A stretch of DNA of 6,642 nucleotides from positions 1 through 6,642 of the forward strand of contig MNYV01000149.1 of assembly GCA_001873285.1 (NCBI GenBank). The letters run 5' to 3'. Shown here in pieces: positions 174 through 2,028 of the stretch. A program made the position numbers and the translations under genes. The number at the start of each line of letters is the position of its first letter. Within the stretch, counting starts at the first letter, position 1. Below the pieces are notes generated by a model that was not told the DNA's origin, searched no databases, and saw nothing but the letters and a program-made list of their open reading frames with translations. The DNA is from Nitrospirae bacterium CG2_30_53_67. Its GTDB lineage: Bacteria; CG2-30-53-67.

Positions 174-1637
174 TTATTTTACCTTCTCGATCAGCTCCTT
201 GGTGTCGACAGGTTTGCTCTTGACCTCCTCAGGTTTCTCCCTGGGCTTCATGAAATCCGGGACCGGTGAGACATCCTTCCAGTTGATTCCTTCTTTCTTC
301 TCCAGGGCGTTGAGTCTCCGGATCATGCTGGCGTCTTCCCAGATCTCGGAAAGCATCAGCTTCAGGGGGGCATTCCCGTACCAGTGGCTCCAGTCCGGGC
401 TCATGTGGTAGGCCCCCTTCCAGGCATGGATGTTGTAGAACTTGTACATGTGGAAAAACTTGGCCTCGATCCCCGAGACCTGCTCATAGAGCTCATGGCC
501 CGTGAGCCAGATATCCTTGCCCTTGGGGAAGGGCGCCGGATTTTCGATCCGGTCAGACGGCATGGGGCTGAGCAGTCCGTCATCTTTCAGACCCTGGATG
601 ATCTTGTAGGCCTCGCCGGTCACGCCGTCGGTCGCGATCTTGATCCCGTCCGCTGTGCCCAGCTTGTGCCTTGCGAATCGTTCCGAATGGCAGTTCTTGC
701 AGATGGCCAGCATCTTGTCCCTCTCTCTCTTAAAGTCATCGGGGCTGATCTCGTTCATGTTGATCCCATTCGGGTCCGGGTGGTATGCGTCACCGCTCGG
801 ATTATTCCCGATGAATTTCCCCTGCGAGGACCCGCCCAGGGTGATCCCCTGGCTCACATCATGGGTCCCCCTGGACATGTGGCAGGTCACACACCCGGGG
901 GCACGGCCCCCTTCTTCAAAGATCTTTCCCTCGACCGAAGCGATGACCCCATGCTTGGAGGATTCGTAGTACTCGGTCTGCGCATGGTCAGGCCCCATAT
1001 GGCAGGTGGCGCAGGCCTCAGGCCTGCGTGCCTCGGCCGGATCGAACCGGTGCCTGGTATGGCAGGAGTCGCATTTCAGCGCAACGCTGTGGCACGTGCC
1101 GCATCCCATCTCTTTCATCTCCTCATACTGCGCCCCGCGCCGTCCGGCCTGGGTGTGCGCTCCGTAGAAACCGTACCGCCCGTGCTTGCCCGCAAAATGC
1201 TGCTCCACGCGTCCGGGATGGCAGGTCCCGCAGGTCTTGGGCAGGGGCATGAAAACCTGGGGGTGGGTGCCGTGACAGACGGAGCAGTCTATCCCGTTCT
1301 TGCCGTGCTTGCTTGCCTTCCATTCTTCAACCGCCGAGGGTGTATATTTCTCGTGGCACTCGACACAGTTCTTCTTGCCGGCGGCCTCGGGCACATCCGG
1401 CGGCGTGTACTGGGTGGGATCATAGTACCCCTGCCCCGCATCGTTCCAGGATGCAGTCATAGAGGTGTAACGGTCATGATAACCCTTCTGCGGCGTGGGG
1501 ATTTCCCGGGTCCCTTTTGAATATTTTGTCGGGTCAAACGAGGTCTCCGGGCCCGCGGCAAAGCTCCACAGCGGAAAGGCCAGGACTGCGGGCAGCAGGA
1601 CGCAAAAAATAAACCTCCTTCGGTGTTCTCCTTCCAT
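174..1637 (-). CDS. Octaheme c-type cytochrome, hydroxylamine oxidoreductase (HAO)-like
   Basis: A periplasmic multiheme cytochrome of 487 aa. Residues 1-28 form a Sec signal peptide (basic HRRR, then a hydrophobic stretch ending near SFAA). There are exactly eight CXXCH heme-c sites, starting at residues 91, 118, 136, 179, 189, 209, 249 and 313. Repeated KHG motifs (His111, His152, His229) and other His residues could be distal ligands. The last ~90 residues have no heme site but hold a conserved-looking block rich in aromatic and His residues (HAWKGAYH, PDWSHWYG, about 404-421). Length, heme count, absence of CXXCK and this C-terminal block fit the HAO family, which oxidises hydroxylamine or hydrazine or, in many anaerobes, reduces nitrite or hydroxylamine. 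I cannot tell whether the Tyr that cross-links the P460 heme is present. The ATG follows a GAGGAGG site. No quinol-oxidising NapC/NrfH partner is visible; the next gene encodes an exported, possibly porin-like protein. Confidence 0.88.
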   Translation of the reverse strand: MEGEHRRRFIFCVLLPAVLAFPLWSFAAGPETSFDPTKYSKGTREIPTPQKGYHDRYTSMTASWNDAGQGYYDPTQYTPPDVPEAAGKKNCVECHEKYTPSAVEEWKASKHGKNGIDCSVCHGTHPQVFMPLPKTCGTCHPGRVEQHFAGKHGRYGFYGAHTQAGRRGAQYEEMKEMGCGTCHSVALKCDSCHTRHRFDPAEARRPEACATCHMGPDHAQTEYYESSKHGVIASVEGKIFEEGGRAPGCVTCHMSRGTHDVSQGITLGGSSQGKFIGNNPSGDAYHPDPNGINMNEISPDDFKRERDKMLAICKNCHSERFARHKLGTADGIKIATDGVTGEAYKIIQGLKDDGLLSPMPSDRIENPAPFPKGKDIWLTGHELYEQVSGIEAKFFHMYKFYNIHAWKGAYHMSPDWSHWYGNAPLKLMLSEIWEDASMIRRLNALEKKEGINWKDVSPVPDFMKPREKPEEVKSKPVDTKELIEKVK

Positions 1638-1771
1638 CTTTTCTCCTCCTCTGTTGATATAGACACCATGTACCCTTTAAAACGGCCATAAATCCACGTT
1701 ATTCATCCACCACCCGGCGGGACGGTCGGTAAGCAGAGAGAGATGGAACAGAAACAAATAGAATGCAAGTA

Positions 1772-1800: not shown

Positions 1801-1815
1801 TCATTCACCGACTTG

Positions 1816-1974
1816 GAGACTGTGTCGCAATGCAACGCTATTTTAAGAAGTGGGGAATGAGCGCTTACATGAGCAACCAACTTGCTTGTCGATCCCACAA
1901 CATAACTTCCCCTGGTTAAAATGTGGGAAACAATTTTTTATTTTTCGCTCCAAAATGCATTACGACACAGTCTC
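1816..1974. mobile_element. MITE-like element with 19-bp terminal inverted repeats
   Basis: The left end GAGACTGTGTCGCAATGCA (1816-1834) is matched at 18 of 19 positions by the reverse complement of the right end (1956-1974). The 121 nt between them are AT-rich and carry no open frame of note. TTG flanks both ends (1813-1815 and 1975-1977), consistent with a 3-bp target duplication, though so short a match can occur by chance. Size, ends and lack of coding content fit a miniature inverted-repeat transposable element, or the joined ends of a deleted insertion sequence. I do not recognise which transposase family would act on these ends. Confidence 0.65.
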
Positions 1975-1984
1975 TTGATCGGGG

Positions 1985-2028
1985 AATCCAGATAAAAGAA
2001 ACTGGATTGTCCGGTCAAGCCGGACAAT
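1985..2028. repeat. Small double-hairpin palindromic repeat
   Basis: ATTGTCCGG (2006-2014) and CCGGACAAT (2020-2028) form a perfect 9-bp stem around a TCAAG loop. Just to the left, AATCCAG (1985-1991) can pair with CTGGATT (2002-2008) across a 10-nt loop. The two stems share ATT at 2006-2008, so they compete. The pattern resembles the short palindromic repeats scattered between genes in many Proteobacteria. There is no T-run to make it a good terminator. Confidence 0.5.

Follow-up and report, generated by a model that had tools for sequence, protein, structure and literature searches.

The stretch of DNA analysed here (the window) is the complete contig C149, 6642 bases long, from a draft genome (G000) that is 95% complete. 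On its minus strand lies a gene for a 487-aa octaheme cytochrome c of the hydroxylamine oxidoreductase (HAO) family, which runs from a start at 1637 to an end at 174; an earlier note on this DNA had described the gene and given no strand. Fourteen bp past the HAO stop and on the same strand is a gene that the earlier note missed, encoding the first 53 aa of an outer-membrane porin of the alginate-export type (window 159-1) that is cut by the contig end. The other genes in the window are those for MurI, a germane-domain protein, an amidase, RNase PH, an XTP/dITP diphosphatase and three tRNAs, and among them, as stated previously, there is no ammonia-oxidation gene and no NapC/NrfH gene. The leader 5' of the HAO gene (1638-1740, minus strand) is conserved, aligning closely with the region just past murI in a sister genome (G001, from Hainich groundwater). 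Two MITE-like elements, at window positions 1803-1987 and 2154-2323, are also found between murI and the HAO gene and carry terminal inverted repeats of 32 and 28 nt. A gap of about 105 bp takes their place in the sister genome, and a 94% copy of the first element occurs at G000:C13:3434-3605.

In a Pfam search, the 487-aa protein matched PF13447 (Multi-haem_cyto) with an E value of 2.3e-28 and a score of 99.7 bits, where the cut-off is 21.9. Its best solved relatives in a search of the PDB were 4n4j (E 2e-41), 6h5l, 4fas and 6hif, with E values ranging from 2e-41 to 8e-35. Of these, 4fas is Nitrosomonas HAO and 6hif is hydrazine dehydrogenase (HDH), and 4n4j and 6h5l are entries that we take to be the Kuenenia proteins kustc1061 and kustc0458, respectively. 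Because the PF13447 score is far above its cut-off and the PDB E values extend down to 2e-41, the assignment to the HAO family is, judged by these matches, not due to chance, which bears out the earlier description of the protein as an HAO relative. An HDH identity was ruled out by score, since the protein reaches 122.7 bits with the NCBIfam hydrazine dehydrogenase model, whose cut-off is 900. NrfA and the octaheme nitrite reductases (ONR, CXXCK type) were also rejected, as the protein has no PF02335 match and all eight of its motifs are CXXCH.

An ortholog that is 90% identical is encoded in the sister genome (L022 5652-7121, G001). Compared with this gene, the HAO gene has a dN/dS of 0.13, about equal to that of the neighbouring murI, and it is therefore under purifying selection. 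A Sec-type signal peptide covering about residues 1-28 (1554-1637, minus strand), with a basic n-region, a hydrophobic stretch and an SFA-A end read by eye, points to probable export to the periplasm. A viral-contig scan provided no further HAO sequences eligible for the modelling alignment, and the AlphaFold2 model, built from a two-row alignment of the only two eligible sequences, has a pLDDT of 32, too low to confirm the fold, the heme packing or the trimer of HAO.

The eight CXXCH sites reported earlier were recovered at residues 91, 118, 136, 179, 189, 209, 249 and 313, all encoded on the minus strand. A motif scan identified sites 1 (CVECH, 1353-1367), 2 (CSVCH, 1272-1286), 3 (CGTCH, 1218-1232), 6 (CATCH, 999-1013), 7 (CVTCH, 879-893) and 8 (CKNCH, 687-701). 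Site 4 (CGTCH, 1089-1103) aligns with the P460 heme site C229-H233 of Nitrosomonas europaea HAO (NeHAO), and site 5 (CDSCH, 1059-1073) follows it by 5 residues, as in nitrifier HAO. The pair D217-H218 (984-989, minus strand) aligns with the catalytic D267/H268 of NeHAO, and this Asp-His pair is kept in 34 of 34 aligned HAO-family rows, a full conservation suggesting that heme 4 is a catalytic heme. His111, 152, 196, 229, 259 and 411 align with the set of conserved His residues in NeHAO. The NeHAO pocket residue Tyr334 has no clear counterpart in the alignments.

In NeHAO, the Tyr that cross-links the P460 heme is the Tyr of GGWTY, residue 467, as confirmed by counting on the PDB sequence. The C-terminal aromatic block that had been noted in the protein is present as H411-MSPDWSHWYG-421 (375-407, minus strand), and Tyr467 pairs in the phmmer alignment with the His of DWSHWYG, His418 (codon 384-386, minus strand). 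His418 also stands at the Tyr467 column in MAFFT alignments with as many as 38 members of the family and in an HMM-HMM alignment of the oxidative group with the query group; kustc0458 has a Trp at the cross-link column by HMM-HMM alignment. One pairwise alignment differs, a BLASTP comparison with Ruegeria HAO in which the cross-link Tyr is paired with Tyr420 instead. Tyr467 lies 8 residues past the conserved His and 13 ahead of the conserved Glu in the helix that follows, and the corresponding distances are 7 and 13 for His418, 8 and 12 for Trp419, and 9 and 11 for Tyr420. His418 or Trp419 therefore fits the loop better than Tyr420, as either calls for one single-residue indel and Tyr420 for two. 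In the MAFFT alignment, moreover, nearly all relatives without the cross-link Tyr have a Tyr or a His at position 420, so that Tyr420 looks like a shared feature of the loop and not like the cross-link residue. Alignment with NeHAO, anammox proteins and HaoA thus indicates that the cross-link Tyr is likely absent at the aligned position, where His418 is found; we say likely only because the single BLASTP alignment picks Tyr420.

In a maximum-likelihood tree, the protein groups with its 90% ortholog and with L044, from the same class. This group is sister to L110, kustc0458, Nitrosomonas and Ruegeria HAO, and kustc1061 and HDH, with support of 95/88 and 96/91. In AU tests, whose p values are indicative as the groupings were named after inspection of the tree, joining the protein to the large standalone octaheme clade (p 0.015) or to the NapC-linked HaoA clade (p 0.022) was disfavoured, which counts against membership of either large Tyr-less clade, and a clade of its own with kustc0458 was rejected (p 0.001). 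Hemes 4 and 5 are joined by a linker of 5 residues in the query and L044 as well as in the Nitrosomonas, Ruegeria and kustc0458 proteins. The linkers of kustc1061 and HDH have 6 residues, and elsewhere the length ranges from 8 to 67, L110 (29 residues) being an exception within the sister group. The short linker is an independent trait that agrees with the position in the tree beside the nitrifier/anammox group. Given the long branches, the thin sampling and the PDB rows assembled from printed alignments, we regard this as moderate evidence for a sister placement to that group.

Several known HAO types come close to this protein. One is kustc0458, which we take to be the Tyr-less, nitrite-reducing HAO of Kuenenia (HAOr): it has eight hemes, the same 5-residue linker, a loop of identical length and no Tyr at the cross-link column, but its identity to the query is low and, as described above, a joint clade of the two was rejected. 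kustc0458 is not known to have a porin partner. The HAOs of N. europaea and Ruegeria pomeroyi share with the query the heme pattern, the linker, the Asp-His pair and the His ahead of the aromatic loop (28% identity to Ruegeria HAO by BLASTP); unlike them, the query has by most alignments no Tyr467 equivalent, and it has no HaoB gene and no AMO nearby. The NapC/NrfH-linked HaoA proteins (the epsilon type, and those of Desulfobaculum and Desulfosarcina plasmids) are likewise octaheme, Tyr-less and presumed to be reductive, but most have a linker of 32-67 residues, a Met where the query has His411, and a NapC neighbour. The standalone DYxxWYG octaheme clade, which spans many families, is Tyr-less in most rows and shares the WYG end, but its linker is mostly 19-27 residues and its fetched loci contain no homologous porin. 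Among other family members, L110 (8925-10670, G080) has a cbb3 subunit III-type cytochrome c domain fused N-terminally to the HAO octaheme. HAO-like octahemes in L115, L121 and L122 lie directly 3' of a cytochrome b gene and a short Rieske-looking gene, and are possibly the electron outlets of a bc-type complex.

The porin is complete in the sister genome (L022 7136-8461, G001), where it has 441 aa and matches PF13372 with an E value of 1.2e-77. The order of genes there is HAO, porin, a dCache-HAMP-PAS histidine kinase and a sigma54 response regulator. In G000, the end of contig C105 carries the porin C-terminus followed by the kinase and the regulator, and the gene order is therefore most likely the same as in G001. 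The sensor kinase is a single 746-aa gene in G001 and is split by a frameshift in G000 (L127 3153-5414). Values of dN/dS of 0.16 for the porin tail and 0.15 for the regulator indicate purifying selection. No homologous porin lies beside any other fetched HAO gene, only beside that of the sister genome, so the pairing is demonstrated for two close relatives alone; as far as our literature search went, such a pairing has apparently not been described before for the HAO family. The pairing suggests that the porin may be a substrate-uptake partner of the HAO-family protein. A scan for sigma54 promoters gave chance-level matches only, and the kinase and regulator may control genes other than the HAO operon.

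NapC/NrfH is absent beside both orthologs, and no dedicated electron donor gene adjoins the HAO gene at the locus. Across G000, there is no strong NapC/NrfH match (the best, at 24.8 bits, falls within an eleven-heme ORF) and no NrfA above the cut-off, so no rival nitrite reductase of the NrfA kind was found. AMO (PF02461) had no match in the eight genomes that represent this phylum in the collection, in which the control search was equally silent, so that an AMO may have been missed. Of 11 molybdopterin enzyme matches in G000, seven were identified with NCBIfam models as NuoG-, PhsA-, QrcB- or TtrA-like or as formate dehydrogenase, and none of the seven reached the cut-offs of the models for NapA or assimilatory nitrate reductase. 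A single prismane match in G000 was rejected as Hcp, since by its size (664 aa) and neighbours it looks like CooS (CO dehydrogenase); an Hcp-like gene is present in G001. The sister genome also has a second HAO at a separate locus, in the order amtB-NapC/NrfH-HaoA-amtB-glnK-amtB-porin, which was not found in G000. This locus (L025 7162-15194, G001:C143) comprises the NapC/NrfH-HaoA pair, three amtB genes, a short glnK/PII-looking ORF and a BBP2 porin, and suggests ammonium handling around this HAO. The non-nitrifier setting that the earlier note described is supported, and its remark on the missing NapC holds at the HAO locus itself, but the second HAO of the sister genome has NapC/NrfH beside it.

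Published work holds that an HAO lacking the cross-link Tyr is reductive (PMC8940962, PMC12758564). The Kuenenia nitrite reductase HAOr, Tyr-less and biochemically shown to be reductive, is cited in PMC12758564, and the Hao of N. profundicola is quoted in support of the same rule (PMC2628731). Most bacterial HAOs outside the anammox bacteria are Tyr-less with a His at the key site (PMC12758564), although the column meant there may differ from the Tyr467 column used here. By this rule, the likely lack of the Tyr at the cross-link column favours reduction, and there is a slightly better than even case for a periplasmic octaheme HAO that works reductively on nitrite, NO or hydroxylamine. The HAO heme spacing, D217/H218, the His or Trp found in place of the Tyr in most alignments and the porin paired with the gene in two genomes speak for this reading; the lack of a Tyr334 equivalent, the BLASTP pairing with Tyr420, the low-scoring structure model, the lack of a dedicated donor gene beside the HAO gene and the failure to find a nitrate reductase or Hcp in G000 speak against it. 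Heme 4 would remain a plain five-coordinate heme c, binding nitrite, NO or hydroxylamine, and would receive electrons from a pool of periplasmic (soluble) cytochrome donors through the other seven hemes, with NO, hydroxylamine or ammonium as the product. A possible role for the porin would be to admit the small anionic substrate to the periplasm. Control of the HAO operon, or of one nearby, could lie with the Cache sensor kinase and the sigma54 activator encoded downstream. We infer the substrate, the direction, the electron donor and the role of the porin from sequence comparison. Of the reductive role proposed earlier, the absence of the Tyr stands by most alignments, but the nearest kin of the protein are not the NapC-linked epsilon-type HaoA, and its direction and substrate remain conditional. 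Since no nitrate reductase and no Hcp were found in G000, a full nitrate-to-ammonium pathway is weakened, and detoxification or the use of external nitrite would fit.

It is possible, though doubtful, that the protein is not a nitrogen enzyme but an octaheme electron-transfer cytochrome, a reductase acting on some other small oxyanion, or a step in porin-linked extracellular electron transfer. G000 does carry other multiheme cytochromes as well as PhsA/PsrA-, TtrA- and QrcB-like Mo enzymes, none of them above the nitrate reductase cut-offs, and the locus offers no nitrogen gene, its partner being a porin. However, the conservation of D217/H218 across the family suggests a catalytic heme, and the 441-aa porin is of the alginate-export type and has, in the sister locus, no neighbouring gene for an outer-surface cytochrome, unlike porin-cytochrome conduits. 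A P460-bearing dehydrogenase of the oxidative kind, acting on hydroxylamine or hydrazine with Tyr420 in the role of Tyr467 through a shifted loop, is quite improbable: the protein's place beside the nitrifier/anammox clade (96/91), the linker shared with that group and the BLASTP pairing with the Ruegeria Tyr are outweighed by His418 at the cross-link column in the HMM-HMM and multiple alignments, by the Tyr or His at position 420 of nearly all Tyr-less relatives, by the HDH model score and by the failure to find AMO, in a search whose control was silent.

Tyr-less HAOs are a poorly characterised route by which anaerobes reduce and detoxify nitrite, and it is presumably from them that the enzymes oxidising hydroxylamine and hydrazine in nitrification and anammox arose. 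A Tyr-less protein that branches beside these oxidising enzymes and belongs to a small, uncultured phylum would be a useful comparison for the change of enzyme direction. It is rather unlikely, but conceivable, that this lineage kept the pre-Tyr state beside the root of the nitrifier/anammox HAOs, with the short linker already present and an outer-membrane porin of its own. If so, a single change of His418 (or Trp419) to Tyr could show the switch from a reductase to the hydroxylamine-oxidising enzymes of nitrification and anammox. Outside the nitrifier/anammox clade, an HAO octaheme in L130 (8995-10233, G362) carries a Tyr at the cross-link column in both MAFFT and HMM-HMM alignments (HNNPQYTYRYGW), and is a candidate for an independent gain of the cross-link Tyr.
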